A stretch of DNA of 64,000 bases from Klebsiella planticola ATCC 33531 (GTDB lineage Bacteria > Pseudomonadota > Gammaproteobacteria > Enterobacterales > Enterobacteriaceae), in assembly GCF_000735435.1 (NCBI RefSeq), contig NZ_JMPP01000047.1:1-64000 (forward strand), written 5' to 3'. The notes under the pieces were generated by a model. The model did no database searches. It saw only the letters and a program-made list of their open reading frames with translations, and was not told the DNA's origin. Positions 11,121-48,036 of the stretch are shown here, piece after piece. Made by a program: the position numbers and the translations under genes. The stretch's first letter is position 1, and each line of letters starts with the position of its first letter.

Positions 11121-11996
11121 ATGATGAATCTTTTACACTGGCGCCTGGTGGTGGCCGTGGCCGATGCCGGCAACATCTCGCGCGCCGCAGAGGAGATAGG
11201 AATGACTCAGTCCGGTGCCAGCCAGGCCATCGCCCAGCTAGAGGCTTCCCTTGGATTTCCGGTATTTACCCGTGAGCGACGATATATTGGTATGACCGCG
11301 CTGGGTGCTCAGGTTGTTGAACATGCGAGAAACATGCTTTCGCAGCTGAGTGCCATCCGCGAACTGGCTGATAAGGGCCGCAATATAAATCGCGGGCACA
11401 TTCGCCTCGCCAGTTTTCCATCCGTGACGTCTACATTGTTGCCCGGCCTGCTGCGCGACGTTAAGCGCCTGCATCCGGGTATTGAGGTCATCCTCCTGGA
11501 AGGTTCGGACGAGGAAGTCGAGGAGTGGCTTGCCGCAGACACCGTTGAACTTGGGGTGGTCATGAATCCCGGCCCCGGGCGTGCAGAGCTTGTAATAGGA
11601 CAGGATGCATGGGTCGCGGTCATACCCGCCAGTCATCGGCTGGCACAGCATGCCAGGACTGATGGCATAACGCTGGCGGCGCTGGCAGACCAGCCCTTTA
11701 TTCTGGCGACAGGCGGATGTGTCGTTAATGGAAAAAGCCTGATGGAAAAGGCAGGGTTCCCCCTCTCTGATATACGGGTGACAGTACGCGACTGGATTAG
11801 CGCCTGTAAGCTGGTCGGGGAAGAGATGGGCGTCGCCCTTGTACCTGAATCTGCCCTGCCGGAAACGTTGCGCAACCTCTGCGTAGTGCCTGTGACACCC
11901 GCTATACACCGTGAATTTGGGCTGGTTTGTTCGTCATCCGGAACCTCTTCTGATGCAACGCAGGCGCTACTTAATGCACTACGTAAACGAGGATGA
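11121..11996 (+). CDS. LysR-family transcriptional regulator
   Basis: 291 residues: N-terminal winged HTH (residues about 4-62, NISRAAEEIGMTQSGASQAI) and a periplasmic-binding-protein-like effector domain. Two in-frame ATGs are adjacent at 11121 and 11124; I keep the first. It diverges from the gstA-like gene, the usual LysR arrangement, so it probably controls that gene together with itself. The effector is unknown. Confidence 0.9.
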   Translation: MMNLLHWRLVVAVADAGNISRAAEEIGMTQSGASQAIAQLEASLGFPVFTRERRYIGMTALGAQVVEHARNMLSQLSAIRELADKGRNINRGHIRLASFPSVTSTLLPGLLRDVKRLHPGIEVILLEGSDEEVEEWLAADTVELGVVMNPGPGRAELVIGQDAWVAVIPASHRLAQHARTDGITLAALADQPFILATGGCVVNGKSLMEKAGFPLSDIRVTVRDWISACKLVGEEMGVALVPESALPETLRNLCVVPVTPAIHREFGLVCSSSGTSSDATQALLNALRKRG

Positions 11997-12030
11997 ACCA
12001 TCAAGAGTTAATCATTTCGCCTTGCTAAAC

Positions 12031-12050
12031 GACCGCTCCTGGCACTCAGG
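12031..12050. repeat. Dispersed hairpin repeat, degenerate copy 2
   Basis: GACCGCTCCTGGCACTCAGG keeps the left arm and the TGGCAC loop of the repeat, but the right arm is lost. It lies 35 bp after the lysR stop. Confidence 0.4.
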
Positions 12051-12135
12051 TATCTACACAACAGCGACCAGCGAGGCTCAGCCAGTCAGCCTGGTCAGTC
12101 ATATATTTCCGTGCAGTCGTACCTGCCTGTGGCCT

Positions 12136-12360
12136 CTATCTCAGTACAAACTGCATCAAATGAACAAAGATATACACTGTCGCAGCCACCTGGATTGTCA
12201 GGAAACCCCATCTGAGATAGCGCCATTCATAGCGTTCTCTGGCATCAGCGGCTTCAATAGCGGGGTCAGAACGTTTTCTTTTCCTGCTCCTGAATTCATT
12301 GATTACCCATAGAATGAGAATAAAGATAATGATGGTTTTCTGAAGAATGGGATTATCCAC
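12136..12360 (-). CDS. Small inner-membrane protein, function unknown
   Basis: A 74-residue frame starting with GTG and preceded by GGAG at plausible spacing. It shows two hydrophobic segments (residues about 9-20 and 52-70) separated by a charged, Arg-rich loop RSRKRKRSDPAIEAADARER. It fits a two-TM membrane protein rather than a shadow frame, because the opposite strand has no gene here. I recognise no family. It lies in the gap between convergent lysR and snoaL-like genes. Confidence 0.45.
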   Translation of the reverse strand: MDNPILQKTIIIFILILWVINEFRSRKRKRSDPAIEAADARERYEWRYLRWGFLTIQVAATVYIFVHLMQFVLR

Positions 12361-35763: not shown

Positions 35764-36242
35764 TGGTTCCGCTCCCCTTCTGGCAATCGCCGGCGGGGGA
35801 GTTCCATCAAGGCAAAACGCGCATTGATACTCACGGTCTATTTCGGCTTGTTGATGCGTAAGTTTTCCCCGCGTCTTTCTCGAGGGCGTTACCGCCGCGT
35901 AGCATCGGCATCGACTGGCGGCGGGCCGTCGCCGGTTTTGGCGGGTAGCGGCGGGTACGGCTATGGCAGGAAGCACGTCGCCATAGCCGCCGTGGCGCCC
36001 CCTTCCACGCCGATGTCGGCGGGCGCCACCACACTTCATGCCCTGCTGCAGATGATGACCGTCGCCCTCGGATCCCCAGATGGGCCAGCGCGGTTTTAAC
36101 CTTTAGTGTGAATCTCAACGCAGGGAACACAGTCCGTTTGCGCAGCCTGTTGGTAAATAATATCGTGGGTGCCGACGCAACCAATTGTTCATCTGCCTTG
36201 CTGCCGATTAAAGCATCCATCACTCAGTTGAGGAGCCAGACC
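35764..36242. other. GC-rich gap, no gene recognised
   Basis: Open frames here on both strands are Arg/Gly-rich and resemble GC-driven shadow frames. A CTCCCC..GGGGAG pairing just after the fabF-like stop (35771-35800) may act as a terminator but lacks a T run. The right part must hold the promoter of the AraC gene. Confidence 0.4.
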
Positions 36243-38877: not shown

Positions 38878-39927
38878 CTAAATATGCTTATCGAAGAAGA
38901 CGTCTAATTTTTGCATTGCCTGGTCAACGTATTTAGGCACCCAATACGTTTCAATATGGGTAGCGCCATCGATCAGGAACAGTTCTTTATCCTTCGTACC
39001 GCTGGCTTTCGCAAACGCATCTTCAGTCATATAGAGCGTATCGGCTTTTGTACCGGCAATCATCAGCAGCGGTTTATTGATGAGATTGATATGGTCCGTT
39101 ACGTCAAAGCTCATCAAATCCAGAAGGCTGCTGGTGGTGTATTTAAACGTGGAGTTCGGGTGTGCGTGGGTTTTCCAGTAGTACTCGTAGCCCTGGCGAT
39201 ACAAGGCAAAAGGTAATTTAGCAATCTGTTCATCAGTCAGGTTGGCATCGCCGGAGTAAAGCACTTCGCCTCCGGCTGCTTCCTGAGCGCGAGCGTCAGA
39301 AGCCTGCTGAAGCCGCTGCTGGATAGTCTCCAGCTGTGAATCCTGCATACCGTTGCGGCGCACAAGACCTGAATTAAACATGCTGATAGTTGCAATCGAT
39401 TTGAACCGTTTGTCCGTCTCGGCGGCAACCAGTGAATACCCGCCGCCACCGCAAATGCCAAGCAGGCCAAGGCGGGAAGTATCAACCCCGGGATACTGGC
39501 TGATGTAATCCGCCATACCGTGGATATCCTCGATACGATTTGCCGGTTTATCCACGCTGCGAGGCATCCCACCGCTGGCGCCCTGATACGCGGCGTCGGC
39601 GGTAATCGTGATGTAGCCCTGCTCAGCGAGACGCTGGGCATACAACCCGGCGACCTGTTCTTTTACACCGCCATTAGGATGCGCGACTACCACGGCAGGG
39701 TATTTTTTGGCGGGATCGTAGTTAGCTGGCGTATAGACGTTGGCAGCAATCTGGATGCCGTGCAGATCGTATTTCACCGGATGAATATTGACCTTGCCTT
39801 TGACGTTCTCAGTAATGGCACCGTCATAGGCCAGTGTGAATGGATTTTTCTTGTAATCAGCCGCATTGACTGAGGTCACTCCGGCCATTGCCGTGAGTAG
39901 CATGGCACTGATAAGCGTGAATTTCAT
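38878..39927 (-). CDS. Exported alpha/beta hydrolase with Cys nucleophile (dienelactone-hydrolase-like)
   Basis: 349 residues with a Sec signal peptide (residues 1-22, VNA-AD). The nucleophile elbow is GICGGGGYS, giving Cys159 instead of Ser as in dienelactone hydrolases; VVVAHPNGGVKEQVAG carries the oxyanion region and DGATHIETYW a late His. Likely periplasmic; substrate unknown. It diverges from the Tat-type aldo/keto reductase gene, and the 249-bp gap carries the proposed response-regulator boxes, so it probably belongs to the same regulon. Confidence 0.85.
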   Translation of the reverse strand: MKFTLISAMLLTAMAGVTSVNAADYKKNPFTLAYDGAITENVKGKVNIHPVKYDLHGIQIAANVYTPANYDPAKKYPAVVVAHPNGGVKEQVAGLYAQRLAEQGYITITADAAYQGASGGMPRSVDKPANRIEDIHGMADYISQYPGVDTSRLGLLGICGGGGYSLVAAETDKRFKSIATISMFNSGLVRRNGMQDSQLETIQQRLQQASDARAQEAAGGEVLYSGDANLTDEQIAKLPFALYRQGYEYYWKTHAHPNSTFKYTTSSLLDLMSFDVTDHINLINKPLLMIAGTKADTLYMTEDAFAKASGTKDKELFLIDGATHIETYWVPKYVDQAMQKLDVFFDKHI

Positions 39928-40068: not shown

Positions 40069-40096
40069 CCTGACAGCGCTGTCAGGTAAGCGTCAG
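40069..40096 (+). promoter_or_regulatory. Proposed response-regulator box A, with palindrome
   Basis: An 18-bp perfect palindrome, CCTGACAGCGCTGTCAGG (40069-40086), overlaps TGTCAG-N5-CGTCAG (40080-40096). Further TGTCAG half-sites occur at 40006 and 40038. The box ends 80 bp before the aldo/keto reductase ATG, in the gap shared with the exported hydrolase. The 11-bp half-site period is that expected for OmpR-type regulators. Confidence 0.65.
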
Positions 40097-40176
40097 CTTT
40101 ATGTTGGCTAGCAAGGAGCAGAATGATCTCGCTTAAAGGAGATTCATGTTCAATTTTCTGAGAAACGGAGCGATCA

Positions 40177-41343
40177 ATGAAAAGCCAGAATGCCCCAACA
40201 ATGCCAGAGCGGCGCAAGCTATTAGTCGCCGGGGCGGGTATTGCCGCCGCCTCGCTGATACCCCACGTATCGGCGGCGAGCCAATCCTCTCAGGTCGATA
40301 CATCCAGACAAACCAGCCAACGCAATGCTGCTCCGGGTAAGCGTAAACTCGGGAAGCTGGAAGTTTCTGCCGTCGGTCTGGGCGTGCAGAACATGAGTCG
40401 CAAATACGACACGTCCGTTCCCTGGCGTCCCGAGATGATCAATGTTATCCACCGGGCATTTGATGAAGGTGTGACGTTCTTCGATGCCGCCGAAGCCTAC
40501 GGCCCGTTTGAAGTCGAAAAAATTCTCGGAGAAGGCGTCGCCCCGTTCAGGGACAAAATCGTTATCGCCACCAAGTTTGGCTGGAACATTGACCAGCAGA
40601 CGGGTAAGCGTCTGCCGGGCCTTAACAGCAGGCCGGAGCATATCAGGCAGGTCGTCGACAATATGCTCAAACGCCTGCGTACCGATCGCATCGACTTACT
40701 GTATCAACACCGTGTTGATCCGCAGATCCCGATCGAAGATGTCGCCGGTGTGGTGAAAGATTTAATGGTTCAAGGAAAAGTCCTGCACTGGGGTCTGTCT
40801 GAAATGGGTATCAACACGTTGAGACGCGCCCACGCAGCATTACCCGTGACCGCCGTACAAAGTGAATACTCCATGCTCTGGCGCGGCCCTGAGAAACAGG
40901 TGCTTCCGGTGTGTGAAGAGCTGGGCATTGGGTTCGTGCCATGGAGTCCACTCGGCGTGCAATTTTTAACCGGCTGGATTGATGAGAATACCCGGTTCGC
41001 TACCGGTGATTTCCGCGCGACAGAAACGCGCTTCTCGCCTGATAACCTGCCACACAACTTACCGCTGGTTGAACTACTGAAATCCTGGGCAATAAGAAAA
41101 AATGCCGCGCCGGGACAGATTGCGCTGGCATGGCTCCTGGCCCGTAAACCCTGGATAGTTCCCATCCCTGGCACCACCAATAAAGACCATCTGCGGCAAA
41201 ACACAGCGGCTAGCGGCGTGTCGCTGACCGCCACGGAGATGACCGAGCTCACTCGCTCACTGGATACCATCACTATCCAGGGTCAACGTCTGCCGGATGC
41301 CGTGCAGGTTTATTCAGATGTTGAAGCACCGTTGCAAAGTTAA
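40177..41343 (+). CDS. Aldo/keto reductase with Tat-type signal peptide
   Basis: 388 residues. The N-terminus PERRKLLVAGAGIAAASLIP ending near VSA-AS is a twin-arginine signal, so the enzyme should be exported folded, possibly with NADP(H) bound. The AKR barrel then shows GLGVQNMSRKY, FFDAAEAYGPFEVEKILGEG (Asp and catalytic Tyr), IATKFGW (Lys), DLLYQHRVD (His) and VPIPGTTNKDHLRQN (cofactor binding). GGAG lies 6 bp before the ATG. Its stop is 14 bp before the response regulator, so enzyme and regulator share an operon. The lack of free NADPH in the periplasm is the puzzle; Zymomonas GFOR, exported by Tat with tightly bound NADP, is a precedent. Confidence 0.88.
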   Translation: MKSQNAPTMPERRKLLVAGAGIAAASLIPHVSAASQSSQVDTSRQTSQRNAAPGKRKLGKLEVSAVGLGVQNMSRKYDTSVPWRPEMINVIHRAFDEGVTFFDAAEAYGPFEVEKILGEGVAPFRDKIVIATKFGWNIDQQTGKRLPGLNSRPEHIRQVVDNMLKRLRTDRIDLLYQHRVDPQIPIEDVAGVVKDLMVQGKVLHWGLSEMGINTLRRAHAALPVTAVQSEYSMLWRGPEKQVLPVCEELGIGFVPWSPLGVQFLTGWIDENTRFATGDFRATETRFSPDNLPHNLPLVELLKSWAIRKNAAPGQIALAWLLARKPWIVPIPGTTNKDHLRQNTAASGVSLTATEMTELTRSLDTITIQGQRLPDAVQVYSDVEAPLQS

Positions 41344-41357
41344 GAGGAAATCCCGTT

Positions 41358-42038
41358 ATGCGCCTGTTGTTAGTCGAAGATGAAGAAAAAACGTCAACCT
41401 ATCTCAACCGTGCGCTGGGTGAGTCCGGATTTACGGTCGATATCTCCGCCGATGGCGCGGAAGGCCTTCATTACGCGCTGGAGTTCGATTATGACGCCAT
41501 CATTCTTGATGTGATGCTGCCGGGGATGGATGGCTACCGGGTACTCGAGGGGGTGCGAGCCGTCAAACAGACGCCGGTGCTGATGCTCTCGGCACGGGGA
41601 TCGGTCGATGAACGGGTCAAAGGGCTTCGCCTTGGCGCTGATGATTATCTCCCGAAACCCTTTTCGCTTATTGAACTGGTGGCGCGTATTCAGGCCCTGG
41701 TGCGGCGCCGGGCTGTGGATGGCGCAGACATCACCCAGTTGCACATTCACGATCTACATCTCGACTTACTGGCTCGCCGGGTATTTCGCGCCGGAACGCG
41801 ACTGGAACTGACCGCGAAAGAGTTTTCCCTGTTGAGCCTTCTCTCCCGCCATCAGGGAGAAATTCTGTCAAAGATGATGATTGCTGAGCAGATATGGGAC
41901 ATGAATTTTGACAGCGATGCCAACGTGGTTGAAGTCGCCATTAAACGTCTGCGCGCCAAAGTGGATGCCCCGTTCGACATTAAGCTGCTTCATACCGTCC
42001 GTGGCATGGGGTACGTCCTTGAAGTCCGCGCTGAATAA
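41358..42038 (+). CDS. OmpR-family response regulator (CusR-like)
   Basis: 226 residues. Receiver domain: acidic pair EDEE at 7-10, phosphoacceptor Asp51 (AIILDVMLPGMDGY) and Lys100 (DDYLPKPF). The C-terminal winged HTH carries LTAKEFSLLSLLSRHQGEIL and NVVEVAIKRLRAK. GAGGAA precedes the ATG. It is followed immediately by its kinase gene. Its likely binding sites are the TGTCAG-N5-CGTCAG boxes at 40080, 43502 and 44965, making the AKR-RR-HK operon autoregulated. Confidence 0.93.
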   Translation: MRLLLVEDEEKTSTYLNRALGESGFTVDISADGAEGLHYALEFDYDAIILDVMLPGMDGYRVLEGVRAVKQTPVLMLSARGSVDERVKGLRLGADDYLPKPFSLIELVARIQALVRRRAVDGADITQLHIHDLHLDLLARRVFRAGTRLELTAKEFSLLSLLSRHQGEILSKMMIAEQIWDMNFDSDANVVEVAIKRLRAKVDAPFDIKLLHTVRGMGYVLEVRAE

Positions 42039-42053
42039 ATGAAGGGGATAAGC

Positions 42054-43523
42054 ATGCTTAAGCGCTCCATCTCAGTCCACCTGGCGCTGATGTTTGCCCT
42101 GTCCGCGCTGCTGATTGTTTCCGTTATCGGTATCCTGCTAAGAAGTTCCCTGCATGACTCTCTGCAAAAGCAGATGCACAATGAGCTGTTGTTCCGGGAA
42201 TCATTAATGAGTCCATGGATCACCGCCCGCACCTCGGCTGACGGCTGGTCGACGCTGGCCAGTAAATTTACTCTGTTAACCAATTCTGAAGGTGAGCGCG
42301 TTCGCTACTGGATAGTGAGCGATGACCCGCGCTTTAGTATAGGGGGAACGCCGCCGCTGGGAGTGCAGTGGTCCGTTTTACAAGAGGGGTTTAATCGCGT
42401 GCCCGGCGCATCGGAAGGCGCATGTTCACTGTTCCTGTTAGTCAAAACCATCCCCGCCAACGGTGAAAGGCCGGAGCTGCGCTACGTGGTTGCCATCGAC
42501 TCCACGCCGTATATGGGAACACTCAATGCGTTCACACGTACGCTGCTGATTATTGCCGCCCTGGGCGTACTGATTGTCGCGTTGCTGGGATACGTCGTTT
42601 CAAGGATTGGTCTGCGCCCGGTGGGGATGCTCAGTAAACAGGCACAACATCTCGCGCCGGTGGACCATGGCCAACGCCTGAATACCCGCGCATTGCCCGA
42701 AGAGCTACAGCAGTTAGCCTCATCTTTTAACGGCGTATTAGCGCGTCAGGAAGTCGCCTGGCGACAGCTTGAAAGCTTTAACGCCGATGTCGCCCATGAA
42801 CTCCGCACACCGCTGACGAACCTGATTGGTCAGACGCAACTGGGGCTCTCACGCCGACGCTCGCCTGATGAGCTGGAAGAGTTACTGGGTTCAAATCTCG
42901 AGGAGCTGGAGCGAATGACGTCTATCGTGAACGACATGCTGTTCCTGTCCCATGCCCATGCGGGTGAACATGCTTCCCAGCTTACGCAGGTGTCCCTGCG
43001 AGAAGAAACCCTGAAAACCGCGGAGTATGTTGAGCCCTCTTTTGCAGAAAAACAGCTTTCTCTGGATGTTGAGGGCGATGTCACCGCGCACATCGACCGG
43101 CGGCTGTTCCACCGCTCGCTGGCCAATTTACTGGAAAACAGCGCAAGACACTCACCCTCCACTAGCACGGTTACGGTGCGCCTAAGCGAAAAAAACAATC
43201 AAGCCTGTGTGGCAGTTTCTAACCCTGGCGATGCGATAGCACCAGAGCACTTACATCGGCTTTTTGAACGGTTTTATCGTGTCGACACCTCCCGGGCCAG
43301 GAGTGATACCCATCATGGGCTGGGCCTGTCGATCGTGCGTGCCGTTGCCATTATGCACCGGGGAGATGTCTTTGCCCGCAGTGAAGGTGGCATCAATACC
43401 TTTGGGCTGACGTTTGCTAAACAGCCTGACGCTATCCGAACAGAGGGACTGATTTCAGAGACAAAATCGGGACGCCAACGCGCTAAACCTGCTGACGAAA
43501 TTGTCAGAGAGCCGTCAGTCTGA
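42054..43523 (+). CDS. Sensor histidine kinase (heavy-metal-sensor type)
   Basis: Start at ATG 42054, after AAGGGG; another ATG at 42039 touches the response-regulator stop. 489 residues: TM1 (about 8-30), a periplasmic sensor region (about 31-158), TM2 (about 162-183), HAMP, the phosphoacceptor His about 248 in NADVAHELRTPL, and the HATPase domain with NLLENSARHS, DTHHGLGLSIV and GGINTFGL. The architecture is like CusS/IrlS kinases. The signal is unknown; because its regulon is periplasmic redox proteins, an envelope oxidant, electrophile or metal is likely. Confidence 0.9.
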   Translation: MLKRSISVHLALMFALSALLIVSVIGILLRSSLHDSLQKQMHNELLFRESLMSPWITARTSADGWSTLASKFTLLTNSEGERVRYWIVSDDPRFSIGGTPPLGVQWSVLQEGFNRVPGASEGACSLFLLVKTIPANGERPELRYVVAIDSTPYMGTLNAFTRTLLIIAALGVLIVALLGYVVSRIGLRPVGMLSKQAQHLAPVDHGQRLNTRALPEELQQLASSFNGVLARQEVAWRQLESFNADVAHELRTPLTNLIGQTQLGLSRRRSPDELEELLGSNLEELERMTSIVNDMLFLSHAHAGEHASQLTQVSLREETLKTAEYVEPSFAEKQLSLDVEGDVTAHIDRRLFHRSLANLLENSARHSPSTSTVTVRLSEKNNQACVAVSNPGDAIAPEHLHRLFERFYRVDTSRARSDTHHGLGLSIVRAVAIMHRGDVFARSEGGINTFGLTFAKQPDAIRTEGLISETKSGRQRAKPADEIVREPSV

Positions 43524-43529
43524 TGTCAG
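43502..43529 (+). promoter_or_regulatory. Proposed response-regulator box B (three half-sites)
   Basis: TGTCAG at 43502, CGTCAG at 43513 and TGTCAG at 43524: exactly 11 bp apart. The array overlaps the last codons of the kinase gene and ends 58 bp before the flavodoxin GTG start. It matches boxes A and C. Confidence 0.68.
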
Positions 43530-43587
43530 GCTACTTGCGCCAGAATCACCGCTCAGACTCACCACTGCTGATTGAAGGAAGGAAACA

Positions 43588-44244
43588 GTGAGAATAAACA
43601 AGTTATTTAGCGGGTTTCTGGCGATAATTGTCACGGGGCTTCTGGGACAGCCCGCGTTCGCAGCAGAGAATTCATCCGCTCAGTCCCGCACGCTGATTAT
43701 CTACTTTTCACAACCCGAGGAAATGAAACCTGATGCGGCGGATGGTTTTTCCGGGGCCAGCGTATTACAAAAAAATACCCCAGAGACCGGCAGCACGCAG
43801 TTTATTGCGCAGCTGGTTCAGAAACAGACTCACGGCGACCTGTTTCACCTTGAAACAACCAGCGCCTACCCTCGCCAACATGATGCGCTTTTACGCGTTG
43901 CCGAAAAGGAGCAGCAAACTCAAGCCAGGCCCGCGCTAAAAACGCCGCTCCCCGCTCTCAGCGATTACGACACCATTTACGTCGGCTATCCCATCTGGTG
44001 GTATACCATGCCAATGGTGATATATAGCCTTTTTGAGCAAAATGATTTTGCCGGTAAAACGGTCATCCCCTTTACCACCCATGGTGGCAGCCGGTTAGCC
44101 GACTCCCTACGAGAAATTGCCCGCATGCAGCCGCAGGCCAAATTAGTCACTCGCGCGCTCTCGATCTCGCGCAACGATATTTCAGATCCTGACGTACCCG
44201 CGCAAGTTGAGCAATGGGTAAAACAAGTCCAGCCGCAGCGTTAA
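43588..44244 (+). CDS. Exported flavodoxin-family protein (Sec signal)
   Basis: 218 residues starting with GTG, after GGAAGGAAACA. The signal peptide covers residues 1-25 (AFA-AE). The mature domain follows the Flavodoxin_4 pattern: TLIIYFSQPEEM at the FMN loop, an insert, GSTQFIAQLVQK, YDTIYVGYPIWWYTMPMVIY (residues about 129-148) and TVIPFTTHGGSRLADSLREI. Flavodoxins are normally cytoplasmic electron carriers, so export is unusual. The next gene, 9 bp away, encodes a cytochrome-like membrane protein that could supply electrons. Confidence 0.87.
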   Translation: MRINKLFSGFLAIIVTGLLGQPAFAAENSSAQSRTLIIYFSQPEEMKPDAADGFSGASVLQKNTPETGSTQFIAQLVQKQTHGDLFHLETTSAYPRQHDALLRVAEKEQQTQARPALKTPLPALSDYDTIYVGYPIWWYTMPMVIYSLFEQNDFAGKTVIPFTTHGGSRLADSLREIARMQPQAKLVTRALSISRNDISDPDVPAQVEQWVKQVQPQR

Positions 44245-44253
44245 GCCATCGAC

Positions 44254-44943
44254 ATGAAGAAAATTTATATTTTTCAGGTGATGCAGGATACGCTAATGAC
44301 GTTACTTCTGCTGGTGCTGATGGGGTTTCATCTTCAGGATGAAATCGTGCATGAATGGGCGGGGATTATTTTTTCACTGCTCATCATGTTGCATTTATAT
44401 CTTAACAGACATCGCTTGTGGTCATTGTCGGCGAAAATGCCTTTAACCATGCGGATAATTAACAGAGTCATTAATGCTGTGACATTCGCTGTTATCCTGA
44501 CCGCTATTGTCTCTGGCATGATGCTGTCCCGACATATCCTTCTGGACCTGCCGTTCCACAACCCGGCAAGCTGGGTCAGAAAAGTACACATGACGTCGGT
44601 CCACTGGGGAATGCTCATTCTGGCGCTGCATATCGGGTTGCACTGGAAAATGCTGGCAACCTTTTTCTGTCGGATCCTGAACATCGCCAACGACTCACGC
44701 TTTGCAAATGTCATTATGCCGGGGATTTTTTCGCTCATCGCACTACTGGGTTTATACTGGCTTCTGAATCTGAACTATCTCGACTATTTGTTGATGAAGG
44801 TTGATTTCTCCTTTTTCGATTACGACGAATCCCCCCTTCTGTTTTATTTACGCTATCTGGCTATTATTATTTTATTTTCATTAATGACACGCTTTTTGCT
44901 TTGGTGCCTTATTTTTAGACAGTACAAAGCGCTGTCACCATAA
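44254..44943 (+). CDS. DUF4405 / cytochrome b-like membrane protein
   Basis: 229 residues with about six TM segments. His residues at paired positions fit heme binding in this cytochrome b-like family: HEWAGIIFSLLIMLHLYLNR in the first half, and HMTSVHWGMLILALHIGLHW in the second. Inner membrane. It lies 9 bp after the exported flavodoxin gene, in the same operon; I infer that it passes electrons from the quinone pool or cytoplasm to periplasmic flavodoxin. The family is poorly characterised and heme has not been shown here. Confidence 0.75.
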   Translation: MKKIYIFQVMQDTLMTLLLLVLMGFHLQDEIVHEWAGIIFSLLIMLHLYLNRHRLWSLSAKMPLTMRIINRVINAVTFAVILTAIVSGMMLSRHILLDLPFHNPASWVRKVHMTSVHWGMLILALHIGLHWKMLATFFCRILNIANDSRFANVIMPGIFSLIALLGLYWLLNLNYLDYLLMKVDFSFFDYDESPLLFYLRYLAIIILFSLMTRFLLWCLIFRQYKALSP

Positions 44944-44964
44944 TTGGGGTTAAACTGACAGAAT

Positions 44965-44981
44965 TGTCAGGGGGTCGTCAG
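44965..44981 (+). promoter_or_regulatory. Proposed response-regulator box C
   Basis: TGTCAGGGGGTCGTCAG, the same TGTCAG-N5-CGTCAG arrangement as boxes A and B. CTGACA occurs just to the left, and CTGACGACATGTCAC to the right. The box ends 70 bp before the exported cupin ATG. Confidence 0.68.
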
Positions 44982-45051
44982 CCTGACGACATGTCACCCT
45001 TATTACAATCATTGCAGGCCATCCCCCTCATTGTAGATAAGGACGCTTTGC

Positions 45052-45531
45052 ATGATCGGACATTTACGTTACCTCGGGCTGTTACTGCCCCTCTTCACCT
45101 TTTCATCCTCGGCAGCGGAGCAAAATCCCGCTGTCCAAATCGCCCCCGCCGGAAGCCAGAATGCGGTGTATGGGCCAGCGGAGAATTTTACCGGTCGCGT
45201 CAGGGTTGATCCTCTTTTCAAACCTGATAACGAAATTAGCGTTTCCGGGGCTTATGTCACCTTTGAACCGGGAGCCCGCTCCGCCTGGCATACGCATCCG
45301 GCAGGTCAGCGGCTGATCGTGACCTCGGGTGTTGGGCTCACCCAACAAGCAGGTCAGCCGGTGCAGGTCATCCGCACGGGTGACGTTGTCTCTTGCCCGG
45401 CGGGCGTTAAACACTGGCACGGGGCTGCCCCTGGCAGTGCAATGACGCATCTGGCGATTACCGGGATTGTGGATGGCAAAAGCGTTAACTGGATGGAGAA
45501 AGTGACAGATGAACAATACCACGCCCATTAA
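45052..45531 (+). CDS. Exported cupin-domain protein
   Basis: 159 residues with a Sec signal (hydrophobic residues about 7-20, SSSA-AE). Single cupin: GARSAWHTHPAGQRLIVTSG supplies motif 1 (His, His, Gln/Glu) and GDVVSCPAGVKHWHGAAPGS motif 2 with two more His. Metal-binding; function unknown. AAGGA precedes the ATG. Its last 23 bp overlap the CMD-like gene. Cytoplasmic cupins of this sort often sit with CMD-like and flavodoxin genes; here the whole set is exported. Confidence 0.85.
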   Translation: MIGHLRYLGLLLPLFTFSSSAAEQNPAVQIAPAGSQNAVYGPAENFTGRVRVDPLFKPDNEISVSGAYVTFEPGARSAWHTHPAGQRLIVTSGVGLTQQAGQPVQVIRTGDVVSCPAGVKHWHGAAPGSAMTHLAITGIVDGKSVNWMEKVTDEQYHAH

Positions 45532-46270
45532 GACATTAACGGCAGCGCTACTGCTGACCTTTGGTTTTGGTCTCACGGCACATGCTGCGCCCGTCAATAA
45601 AGGAGCCTCAGAAATGAACCAGCCATCAACCGTTTCAGATACGCTGTCAGCTCGCCAGCAGGCCATCCCGTTGATCGCGGCATCGATGGCCAGTAGTCAG
45701 ATGGACAAGCTGAATGCGGCACTGAATCAGGGGCTTGACGCCGGGCTCACGATAAACGAAGCCAAAGAGATTCTCGCCCAGCTCTATGCCTACACCGGCT
45801 TCCCTCGTAGCCTGAATGCACTTAGCGAACTGATGAAGGTCGTCGAAGCACGCAAACAACGTGGCATCGAAGACGTTGAGGGTAAAGAGCCTGTCGCCCC
45901 CGTCCCCACCGGGGAGGAACTTCGCCGGGTCGGGACCGCGAACCAGACCAAAATCTCAGGCGCGCCCGTCCAGGGGCCGCTGTTTGATTTTGCGCCGGTC
46001 ATTAATCAGTTTCTGCAAACGCATCTGTTCGGCGACATTTTCGCCCGCGATAACCTCGACTGGCAGAGCCGCGAGCTGGCAACAGTTGGCGCATTAGCGG
46101 CCACGCCGGGCGTTGAAGCCCAGCTGCTATCGCATACGCGAGCCAGCATGCGGGTCGGCCTGACCGCCGCGCAGCTGCGCCAGCTGGCACAGGTTCTGCG
46201 TGAGCATGGCGAAAGTGATGCGGCTACGCGAGCGGAAAAGGCGCTGCAACAGGCGCTCGCAAACCATTAG
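45509..46270 (+). CDS. Exported carboxymuconolactone-decarboxylase-family protein
   Basis: 253 residues with a signal peptide (residues 1-26, AHA-AP). Two CMD-type helical repeats follow: GLTINEAKEILAQLYAYTGF with RSLNALSEL, and LDWQSRELATVGALAATPGV. The typical AhpD-like Cys pair is not seen, so it is probably not a thiol peroxidase partner. Oddly, an internal ATG at 45614 (MNQPSTVSDT) is preceded at 8 bp by a perfect AAAGGAG, better than the site of the first ATG. The gene may therefore give exported and cytoplasmic forms, or may have gained its signal peptide recently. Confidence 0.85.
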   Translation: MNNTTPIKTLTAALLLTFGFGLTAHAAPVNKGASEMNQPSTVSDTLSARQQAIPLIAASMASSQMDKLNAALNQGLDAGLTINEAKEILAQLYAYTGFPRSLNALSELMKVVEARKQRGIEDVEGKEPVAPVPTGEELRRVGTANQTKISGAPVQGPLFDFAPVINQFLQTHLFGDIFARDNLDWQSRELATVGALAATPGVEAQLLSHTRASMRVGLTAAQLRQLAQVLREHGESDAATRAEKALQQALANH

Positions 46271-46279
46271 GAGTTGGCT

Positions 46280-46864
46280 ATGGAGCATGATCCCCACCGC
46301 AGAATGTTAATCACCGCACTTGCCGGGCTGACGCTGGCGAACGTCTCCCTGGCATCGGCAGCCACCGGAAACGCGAACGTGCAGGGTAAAAGCCGTGTTC
46401 TGGTGGCGTACTTTTCCCGCAGCGGAAATACACGGGTGATTGCCGGCGTCATTCACCGCCACCTGAATACCGATCTGTTTGAAATTGAACCGGCTACGCC
46501 TTATCCGGAAGACTATTTCCAGACCGTGGAACAGGCGAAAAATGAGCGTGAGCGAGGCGTAAAACCCGCCTTAAAAAATCGCGTCGCAGATATCTCACGC
46601 TACGAGACCGTGTATTTAGGTTTTCCCATCTGGGGGACCAGCGTGCCGCCTGTAGTGCAGGCATTTCTCAGCAGCCATAACCTTGCGGGCAAATTACTGA
46701 TCCCCTTCATTACTCACGGCGGCTACGGTAAAGGAGACAGCGACGACATCCTTACCAGCCTGGCCCCAACAGCCCGTCGGGAAAAACCGCTGGTCATTGA
46801 ATGCGACCAGGAGCGAAGAACCACAGAAACGGTCAACAGCTGGTTAGAAACCCTACGCGGCTAA
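46280..46864 (+). CDS. Exported flavodoxin-family protein (Tat-type signal)
   Basis: Start at ATG 46280, 6 bp after TAGGAG; a TTG at 46274 is less likely. 194 residues. The N-terminus HRRMLITALAGLTLANVSLA followed by SAA is a twin-arginine-type signal. The flavodoxin core has VLVAYFSRSGNTRVIAG (FMN phosphate loop), YETVYLGFPIWGTSVPPVVQ and LLIPFITHGGYGKGDSDDI. Tat export fits a protein that must fold around FMN in the cytoplasm. It is third in the cupin-CMD-flavodoxin operon. Confidence 0.87.
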   Translation: MEHDPHRRMLITALAGLTLANVSLASAATGNANVQGKSRVLVAYFSRSGNTRVIAGVIHRHLNTDLFEIEPATPYPEDYFQTVEQAKNERERGVKPALKNRVADISRYETVYLGFPIWGTSVPPVVQAFLSSHNLAGKLLIPFITHGGYGKGDSDDILTSLAPTARREKPLVIECDQERRTTETVNSWLETLRG

Positions 46865-46865
46865 T

Positions 46866-46888
46866 CGTCCGCATTTATGAGTCGGACA
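46866..46888 (+). terminator. Possible hairpin after the Tat flavodoxin gene
   Basis: GTCCG / CGGAC pair (46867-46871 with 46883-46887) right after the stop codon. It may be a degenerate member of the dispersed repeat; there is no T run. Confidence 0.3.
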
Positions 46889-46971
46889 AATAGGGGCAAT
46901 CAAGGCTGCTAAATAATTCACTCCGGCCATTCAGATATGATTGAACGGCAAACATAACCGAGGATGTCATT

Positions 46972-48036
46972 TTGAAGACAATAGTAAAAACGCTGGCCAT
47001 CTGCGTGATGGCGAGTGGCCTGGTGGCTCAGTCGGTATACGCCGGGCCGCTGGTCATTCAGGAACAGGGAAGCTTTTCTGCTGGTGGCACTATCATCACC
47101 GCTCCAGGAACATTTGACGCGAAAAAGCCGCTGGATTCAGCTGGCCAAACCTATCATGGCGATCATGCCTCCGTGTTCTACCAAATTCCGGAGAATCCGC
47201 ATAAATACCCTATTGTCATGCTGCACGGCGCAGGTCAGTTCTCCCGCACCTGGGAAAGCACCCCGGATGGTCGTGAAGGGTTCCAGAACATATTCCTGCG
47301 TCGTGGATTCTCAACTTATCTTGTCGATCAGCCGCGTCGGGGCAGCGCCGGGCGCACGACTGTAGAAGGTACGGTTACGCCAAAACCGGATGAACAGATG
47401 TGGTTTAATCAGTTCCGCGTTGGCGTGTGGCCAGAGTATTTTAAAGGCGTTCAGTTCTCTCACGACAAAGAAGCCCTGAATCAGTATTTCCGTCAGATGA
47501 CCCCGAATACCGGGCCGTTTGATATCAACGTTATCTCTGATGCAATGTCCGCCGTCGTGGATAAATCCGGCCCGGCTATCCTCTTCACCCACTCTCAGGG
47601 TGGCGGGCCGGGCTGGTACACGGCGATGAAAAACGACAAGGTCAAAGCTATTGTCGCCTTCGAGCCTGGCAGCAGCTTTGTCTTCCCGGAAAAAGAACTC
47701 CCTGTCCCTATGCCAAGTGCGTTCGACACGCTGAAGGGTGACCCTGTGCCGATGCAACAGTTTATGGCGCTGACTAAAATCCCGATTCTGATTATTTACG
47801 GCGATAACATCCCGGATAAACCTGTCGCCATGCCCGCGCAGGACAGCTGGCGCGTACGCCTGGCGATGGCTCGTGAGTGGCGTGACGTGGTGAACAAGCA
47901 TGGCGGGGATGTCACTGTGACGCATCTGCCTGAGACAGGTATCAAAGGTAATACCCACTTCCCGTTCTCTGACCTCAACAATGTGCAGATTGCTGATTTA
48001 GTGAGTCAGTTCCTGAAGGAAAAAGATCTGCAATAA
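46972..48036 (+). CDS. Exported alpha/beta hydrolase
   Basis: 354 residues from a TTG start, 7 bp after GAGGAT. Sec signal at residues 1-24 (VYA-GP). Oxyanion strand YPIVMLHGAGQFSRTWES, nucleophile Ser208 in FTHSQGGGPGW, acid in IYGDNIPDKP and a late His in GNTHFPFSD. Related proteins are annotated as esterase-like; substrate unknown. It follows the exported flavodoxin gene by 107 bp, with no response-regulator box of its own seen, so it may be read through from box C. Confidence 0.85.
   Translation: MKTIVKTLAICVMASGLVAQSVYAGPLVIQEQGSFSAGGTIITAPGTFDAKKPLDSAGQTYHGDHASVFYQIPENPHKYPIVMLHGAGQFSRTWESTPDGREGFQNIFLRRGFSTYLVDQPRRGSAGRTTVEGTVTPKPDEQMWFNQFRVGVWPEYFKGVQFSHDKEALNQYFRQMTPNTGPFDINVISDAMSAVVDKSGPAILFTHSQGGGPGWYTAMKNDKVKAIVAFEPGSSFVFPEKELPVPMPSAFDTLKGDPVPMQQFMALTKIPILIIYGDNIPDKPVAMPAQDSWRVRLAMAREWRDVVNKHGGDVTVTHLPETGIKGNTHFPFSDLNNVQIADLVSQFLKEKDLQ

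Follow-up and report, generated by a model that had tools for sequence, protein, structure and literature searches.

Results

Gene content of the predicted exported redox cluster

The window analysed here is the first 64 kb (64,000 nucleotides) of contig NZ_JMPP01000047.1 (C47) in the 5.67 Mb genome of Klebsiella planticola ATCC 33531. It carries a cluster of genes for aldo/keto reductase (AKR), flavodoxin, DUF4405, cupin, CMD-family and hydrolase proteins around a two-component system, and we analysed this cluster as a predicted exported redox set. A sequence-only reading had placed the set at 40177–48036. Profile searches and a check of the open reading frames (ORFs) found all the claimed ORFs and families in place; the boundaries proved too narrow, because the set reaches the exported hydrolase at 38878–39927 and genes past the window end.

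The hydrolase gene hyd0 (38878–39927, minus strand) encodes an alpha/beta hydrolase (Pfam S15/DLH) predicted as exported by the signal rule given below; it adjoins the cluster in related copies and is divergent from the AKR gene across an operator at 40070. All further genes lie on the plus strand. The AKR (40177–41343, PF00248) starts with a signal of the twin-arginine translocation (Tat) type, ERRKLLVAG. It is followed by a CusR/HprR-type response regulator (41358–42038; TIGR01387 score 296.5, cut-off 279.2) and a CusS/HprS-type sensor kinase (42039–43523; TIGR01386 score 401.4, cut-off 292.55), which in alignment lacks the His/Met loop of CusS. Flavodoxin 1 (fld1, 43588–44244; Flavodoxin_4, NF005389 above cut-off) has a Sec-type signal and an ApbE motif, and the next gene (44254–44943, PF14358) encodes a DUF4405 membrane protein, a predicted cytochrome with two haems b (H33/H47 and H112/H126). 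The exported cupin (45052–45531) belongs to the (R)-mandelonitrile lyase family (NF049940 score 177.2, cut-off 140), and its ORF overlaps that of an exported CMD-family protein (45509–46270, PF02627). Flavodoxin 2 (fld2, 46280–46864; Flavodoxin_4), with a Tat-type signal (HRRMLITAL) and no flavinylation motif, and hyd1 (46972–48036, PF12697), a second alpha/beta hydrolase passing the signal rule, complete the row.

A shared operator, probably of the two-component system

The element CTGACAnnnnTGTCAG-N5-CGTCAG precedes the AKR, flavodoxin 1 and cupin genes. The predicted response-regulator operator in the AKR/hyd0 promoter region (40070–40101) contains CTGACAGNNNTGTCAG exactly and fits the extended element with one mismatch. 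The predicted operator of flavodoxin 1 and DUF4405 (43492–43523) lies within the 3' end of the kinase gene and fits the extended element perfectly, and that of the cupin, CMD and flavodoxin 2 genes (44955–44986) fits both CTGACAGNNNTGTCAG and the extended element with no mismatch. In the whole genome, CTGACAGNNNTGTCAG was found without mismatch at just two places, 40070 (before AKR) and 44955 (before the cupin). We then counted sites with at most one mismatch in 25 mutually related loci (509,483 bases; L030, L032 and L033 were left out and L008–L019 dropped as sub-stretches), and 56 of the 63 sites preceded a cluster gene by no more than 320 bases. Broken down by promoter, sites were present at AKR/response regulator/hydrolase genes in 19 of 20 loci, at flavodoxin 1 in 13 of 13, at the cupin in 20 of 20 and at a BhsA-like gene in 4 of 6. 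A control pattern with the operator halves read backwards gave no site in the same 25 loci. A third half-site, CGTCAG with at most one mismatch, followed about 11 bases further on in all 51 distinct sites of 24 of these loci (L004 omitted). An 11-base direct repeat is typical of OmpR-family regulators.

The pattern TGTCAGNNNNNCGTCAGNCTNA (at most two mismatches) occurred at 19 places in the genome, compared with four for the backwards pattern; because the pattern was derived from these promoters, the scan shows specificity and not independent discovery. The top three places were the promoters of flavodoxin 1 (0 mismatches), the cupin (0) and AKR (1). The other 16, each with two mismatches, included a weaker copy in front of the BhsA-like gene (C47:70253), which lies 22 kb beyond the cluster. 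These results suggested that the AKR, flavodoxin 1 and cupin promoters form one predicted regulon.

The response regulator was 53% identical to CusR and 50% to HprR, the two K-12 regulators compared, and the sensor kinase was about equally distant from CusS (32%) and HprS (31%). Scores to the specific models stayed below the cut-offs for CusRS (NF007346, 269.5 against 420; NF007345, 254.2 against 423) and for HprRS (NF008567, 263.3 against 353). Related two-component systems act in copper and hypochlorous acid responses, according to the passages of PMC9302797 on these systems, which also describe copper induction of msrP through CusSR. It could thus be argued that the cluster serves metal defence, with a heavy-metal-type sensor detecting copper or silver and the exported redox proteins changing the redox state of the metal; the above-cut-off scores to TIGR01386 and TIGR01387 and the slightly nearer CusR point that way, and the BhsA-like gene would suit copper too. 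However, the kinase lacks the MMMPGHGHGHMEH stretch of CusS in addition to the low family scores, and neither the ten proteins scanned nor the annotated neighbours of five related copies include a metal pump, CusF-like protein or copper oxidase. On balance, we regard metal defence as unlikely.

Export-type N-termini of the soluble enzymes

Flavodoxins and NADPH-dependent AKRs are classically regarded as proteins of the cytosol. We screened the cluster with a home-made export rule, which asks for a positive n-region, a 9-residue hydrophobic core, an A-x-A-type site and no later transmembrane segment. All seven soluble enzymes (hyd0, AKR, flavodoxin 1, cupin, CMD protein, flavodoxin 2 and hyd1) passed. 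As controls, 3 of 43 coding sequences in bases 1–50,000 of E. coli K-12 passed (yaaX and yaaI, with signal-like N-termini, and carB, falsely), as did three of five exported K-12 proteins (zinT and cusC were missed); none of three cytosolic ones did. An AraC gene at 36108 also passed from its first listed start, probably falsely. The rule was likewise passed by 110 of 112 distinct full-length orthologue sequences: hyd0 18/18, AKR 9/9 (the broken or partial AKRs of L023, L027 and L039 left out), flavodoxin 1 13/13, cupin 18/20, CMD protein 22/22, flavodoxin 2 15/15 and hyd1 15/15. Orthologues of DUF4405 (0/13) and the kinase (0/16) did not pass, fitting membrane proteins. The claim of wholesale export, with DUF4405 embedded in the membrane, was thus supported by export-type N-termini, and the expected co-occurrence of signals with the family set across relatives held by the same rule.

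Twin arginines were present in all nine AKR and all 15 flavodoxin 2 orthologues and in none of the 13 flavodoxin 1 orthologues. Every one of these AKR and flavodoxin 2 sequences combined the twin arginine with a mild hydrophobic core and an A-x-A site, as predicted for Tat substrates. Flavodoxin 1, with no twin arginine, looks Sec-exported.

Flavodoxin 1 and its constant DUF4405 partner

Flavodoxin 1 falls within the Flavodoxin_4 domain family, and among 369 genomes of the class only this one contained a match to NF005389 above cut-off. Residues 52–58, DGFSGAS (43741–43761, plus strand), match the ApbE flavinylation motif [S/T]GA[S/T] and were retained in 13 of 13 intact orthologues; this count omits the Raoultella ornithinolytica flavodoxin 1 (L023 = L041), whose N-terminal part is out of frame with the rest. 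In alignment, the motif sits in the beta1-alpha1 insertion, between beta1 and the phosphate loop, and the portion of PMC11334425 on flavinylated Flavodoxin_4 proteins gives a [S/T]GA[S/T] site at the corresponding place. Such a motif arose in 25 of 20,000 shuffles and was absent from all 15 flavodoxin 2 orthologues. The best Protein Data Bank (PDB) matches of the flavodoxin 1 model were 4j8p, 4ici and 3klb. An apbE gene was found in the genome itself and in 10 of 11 searched records with flavodoxin 1, the eleventh being a plasmid alone. Two further observations concern flavinylation: a second apbE, split over two frames (L101, C38:4500-9000), is found close to a protein that bears a flavinylation-type motif itself, DAISGAT, and a Ruminococcus lipoprotein-type flavodoxin (L043, 7770-8525) has NDAVTSASK at the flavodoxin 1 motif position, perhaps a divergent flavinylation site.

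Flavodoxin 1 adjoined DUF4405 in 14 of 14 loci, counting the R. ornithinolytica copy, and one further locus of the 26 had a DUF4405 remnant alone. The histidines H33, H47, H112 and H126 of DUF4405 were invariant in 13 of 13 aligned rows, one of them from Ruminococcaceae, and its structure model shows six long helices plus short ones. Four central histidines in a six-helix membrane protein are consistent with a predicted cytochrome; haem b binding by another DUF4405 protein and flavodoxin–DUF4405 pairs are described in the relevant parts of PMC11334425 (2024).

Taken together, flavodoxin 1 probably carries a covalent flavin and is fed electrons by the membrane cytochrome DUF4405. The best-supported chain is likely to run in the periplasm from quinol through the DUF4405 haems to flavin mononucleotide (FMN) on flavodoxin 1. 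The sequence-only reading had found no obvious electron supply for periplasmic flavodoxins and had proposed DUF4405 as the donor. The ApbE motif and the constant DUF4405 neighbour together offer a likely answer to this puzzle and support the proposal, and such pairs have a published precedent in the sections of PMC11334425 on them.

Independent assortment of AKR and flavodoxin 2

The exported AKR shared 177 of 319 aligned residues (55%) with the cytosolic AKRc from a related island and was longer than it by about 52 residues at the N-terminus; the AKRc of this genome was likewise 55% identical over 319 aa. Residues around the catalytic Asp, Tyr, Lys and His, which we take to be the usual AKR tetrad, were invariant in 9 of 9 orthologues. 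Zymomonas GFOR, cited earlier as the model for an AKR travelling with bound NADP(H), is of another fold family than PF00248.

We compared gene presence in 18 loci with the response regulator and cupin. AKR and flavodoxin 1 occurred together in four, AKR only in seven, flavodoxin 1 only in five and neither in two (Fisher p = 0.33); the corresponding counts for flavodoxin 2 and flavodoxin 1 were 6, 5, 3 and 4 (p = 1). The loci, which were picked for similarity in CMD, flavodoxin 1 or DNA, are mutually related, so the p-values are descriptive only. AKR and flavodoxin 2 thus assort independently of the flavodoxin 1–DUF4405 pair, and the counts argue against a single required electron chain that leads from DUF4405 via flavodoxin to AKR. 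The substrate of flavodoxin 1 need not be flavodoxin 2 or AKR. The two flavodoxins are not equivalent, as the flavinylation motif and the constant DUF4405 partner belong to flavodoxin 1 only.

Such assortment would also be expected if there were no single system at all, just independent stress genes gathered behind one type of promoter, of which some are exported for reasons of their own. In addition, flavodoxin 1–DUF4405 stands without cupin, CMD or two-component genes in the examined stretches of Yersinia massiliensis (L037) and Klebsiella spallanzanii (L040). However, the extended operator is common to all, including both lone pairs, and all seven soluble enzymes look exported. We consider this explanation improbable and read the exported redox set as real, well conserved and coordinated by the operator.

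Cupin, CMD protein and hydrolases

The cupin matched PDB 4bif with E 1.6e-46. WHTHPAGQ and HWHGA, presumably the metal-ligand pattern, were invariant in 20 of 20 orthologues and, with the family score, suggested a member of the (R)-mandelonitrile lyase family. The CMD gene was present in 18 of 18 loci with the response regulator and cupin. Earlier described as CMD-like, its product kept its family assignment and predicted export; the window protein has no cysteine at all. The AhpD-type peroxidase CxxC was absent from all 22 CMD orthologues, of which 17 had no cysteine, four had one in the signal region and one (L030) had one in the mature part. The CMD relatives are of decarboxylase type.

Cytosolic relatives included fused CMD-cupin proteins of 356–357 aa with no visible signal in two relatives (Pfam check of one). 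Together with the cytosolic AKR doubles, they agree with the earlier statement that the same families occur as cytoplasmic versions. The signal-free fused genes lie at L031 6653-7723 and L032 9793-10866; the former stands beside a LysR gene, about 4.5 kb from an exported split pair. A conjugative IncHI2A plasmid of E. hormaechei (L092, 5989-8154) carries CMD and cupin genes without visible signals together with a gene for alcohol dehydrogenase, close to one for an aminoglycoside phosphotransferase.

The likeness of cupin and CMD protein to hydroxynitrile lyase (HNL) and decarboxylases, together with the missing peroxidase motif, led us to a fair guess at the target: an electrophile or oxidant by-product such as an aldehyde, cyanohydrin or lactone. 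The same enzymes might instead break down or detoxify one particular plant or phenolic compound (a cyanohydrin, lactone or ester), with hydrolases opening it, cupin and CMD protein cleaving it and AKR reducing the aldehyde. The cupin family, the decarboxylase-type relatives, the two hydrolases and related LysR-cupin-CMD-AKR sets on Achromobacter, Pseudomonas and Cupriavidus plasmids would suit such a route. However, HNL naming rests on in vitro enzyme assays, no ring-cleavage, uptake or central-pathway gene was found among the ten proteins scanned, and an envelope-stress-type two-component regulator with redox carriers would fit stress better. We hold a dedicated plant or phenolic route to be unlikely.

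The larger island and its distribution

In several related copies, the cluster runs on into genes for cytosolic AKRb, AKRc, LysR, a short-chain dehydrogenase/reductase (SDR) and a BhsA-like protein, with major facilitator superfamily (MFS) transporter and nitroreductase genes on the opposite side. The K. planticola genome carries the AKRb, AKRc, LysR, SDR and BhsA-like genes some 18 kb past hyd1, at C47:66477-70623. The exported cluster and the LysR/AKR genes thus share one island, so that the exported two-component arm and the cytosolic LysR arm travel together.

Pieces of 43588–47580 were found in 90 of 5426 E. coli genomes, with flavodoxin 2 in nine and flavodoxin 1–DUF4405 in two. DNA similar to part of 43588–48036 was found in 149 plasmid records, two of which cover at least 80%. 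A Ruminococcaceae locus (L044) has, in a row, LysR, flavodoxin, AKR, lipoprotein-type flavodoxin, fused CMD-cupin, DUF4405 and flavin reductase genes. On an Achromobacter plasmid (L093), hydrolase and CMD genes are accompanied by two LysR genes, an AKR gene, a Tat-type flavodoxin that shares 60% identity with flavodoxin 2, a further AKR gene and a cupin whose start resembles a signal.

Some copies are decayed or rearranged. E. coli PSUO2 (L004, 5093-9536) holds a chromosomal remnant with an annotated frameshifted cupin, a truncated kinase and no flavodoxin, and the same 51% two-piece match recurs in 12 of 20 E. coli rows among the matches listed. In R. ornithinolytica (L023/L041), the operators are kept and flavodoxin 1 and AKR are broken or fragmentary. 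A K. pneumoniae plasmid (NZ_CP141562.1, L007) lacks the exported AKR and has a formylglycine-generating-enzyme-family gene (11319-12206) between flavodoxin 2 and hyd1. The hyd1–AKRb gap holds an ATP-binding protein and SIR2 protein or a SMEK-domain protein (L005 10308-13198; L006 11297-12379) and, in the K. planticola genome, about 18 kb of other genes (C47:48037-66476); further downstream, L003 has an ATP-dependent nuclease and a UvrD-type helicase. This gap may be a hot spot for inserted DNA, perhaps for defence genes.

Discussion

Sequence analysis of the cluster showed a shared operator, export-type N-termini, the flavodoxin 1 motif, the constant flavodoxin 1–DUF4405 pairing and cytosolic doubles of its enzymes. 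We favour, with moderate confidence, a mobile periplasmic twin of a cytosolic LysR-type defence against electrophiles or oxidants, placed under a CusRS/HprRS-like sensor. AKRs, SDR, LysR and the BhsA-like gene as neighbours in the K. planticola genome, joined in related copies by MFS and nitroreductase genes, fit this theme, as do the copper and hypochlorous acid responses of related two-component systems (PMC9302797). In the proposed mechanism, the CusRS/HprRS-like system would bind tandem TGTCAG/CGTCAG half-sites at the three cluster promoters and switch on the exported hydrolases, cupin, CMD protein, AKR and two flavodoxins. Flavodoxin 1 would leave by Sec as an apoprotein and then be flavinylated at Ser58 by ApbE made elsewhere in the genome, and the DUF4405 di-haem cytochrome would hand electrons from the quinol pool to its FMN. 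Flavodoxin 2 and AKR would leave by Tat in folded form, presumably with FMN and NADP(H) bound. Cupin and CMD protein may act as one unit that processes a toxic compound or its breakdown product, which hydrolases and reductases would finish. The inducing stress and the electron acceptor in this scheme are inferred.

Several observations weigh against this reading. No apbE was found in 16 tested loci (14 with flavodoxin 1 and two clostridial), unlike the published clusters, and apbE in the same gene cluster was the discovery criterion in the portion of PMC11334425 concerned. Fold matches of the DUF4405 model to the PDB were not decisive. DUF4405 matches occurred in 118 of 369 class genomes, and among the best 30 loci none of the 29 outside this genome had such a flavodoxin within about 1.5 kb, which indicates that most gammaproteobacterial DUF4405 proteins have no such partner. 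The "toolkit" is modular, since several clusters lack AKR, several flavodoxin 2 and several hyd1. A search of the window and of C47:62001-80000 revealed no relatives of the MFS and nitroreductase genes.

A more speculative extension, which we put forward tentatively and think doubtful in full, is that a whole cytosolic detoxification pathway (AKR, flavodoxin, cupin, CMD protein and hydrolase) was duplicated to give a periplasmic twin under sensor control. The twin would use two flavin routes, Sec export with ApbE attachment for flavodoxin 1 and a preloaded Tat holoprotein for flavodoxin 2, and the Tat-exported AKR would keep a permanently bound NADP(H) that is recharged in place and not exchanged. 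If the cluster works as read, Enterobacterales own a mobile periplasmic electron line from quinol through DUF4405 to a covalent-flavin flavodoxin. The operator-defined, expressible regulon would then make the targets of DUF4405–flavodoxin pairs directly testable in E. coli, and two flavodoxins in one regulon, with apparently different export routes and flavin attachment, would provide a natural comparison.

Comparison with known systems

The cluster cupin resembles the Granulicella cupin hydroxynitrile lyase (PDB 4bif and 4uxa, which we take to be GtHNL) over about 130 alignable residues, with His-x-His...Gln and His-Trp-His conserved; it differs in its signal peptide and its tie to a CMD gene. 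The LysR-type clusters of Ruminococcaceae (L044) and Achromobacter (L093) similarly bring AKR, flavodoxin, CMD and cupin families together. L044 additionally shares DUF4405 and an exported lipoprotein-type flavodoxin, and L093 a Tat-type flavodoxin and a cupin with a signal. They differ in LysR instead of two-component control, and their AKRs and the fused CMD-cupin of L044 have no signal.

E. coli MsrPQ with HprRS/CusRS, as presented in the pertinent parts of PMC9302797, resembles the cluster in its two-component class and in a membrane haem protein that feeds a periplasmic redox protein. Its operator is CATTACAAAATTGTAATG, compared with CTGACAnnnnTGTCAG here, a flavodoxin takes the place of the molybdoenzyme, and no MsrP- or MsrQ-type family was found among the ten proteins scanned.

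The sequence-only reading knew of no described system of this composition. For the whole set we found none in the literature searched, nor any description of exported doubles of a cytosolic detoxification set with Tat-type flavodoxin and Tat-type AKR; the flavodoxin–DUF4405 half was already published in 2024, as the sections of PMC11334425 on that module show, and half of the cluster is a new setting for it. Both systems share [S/T]GA[S/T] in the beta1-alpha1 insertion and an adjoining DUF4405 gene with four conserved histidines. Compared with the system as described there, apbE lies elsewhere in the genome here, the host belongs to Enterobacterales, the regulator is CusRS/HprRS-like, and the module is joined to an exported cupin, CMD protein, AKR and a second, Tat-type flavodoxin.

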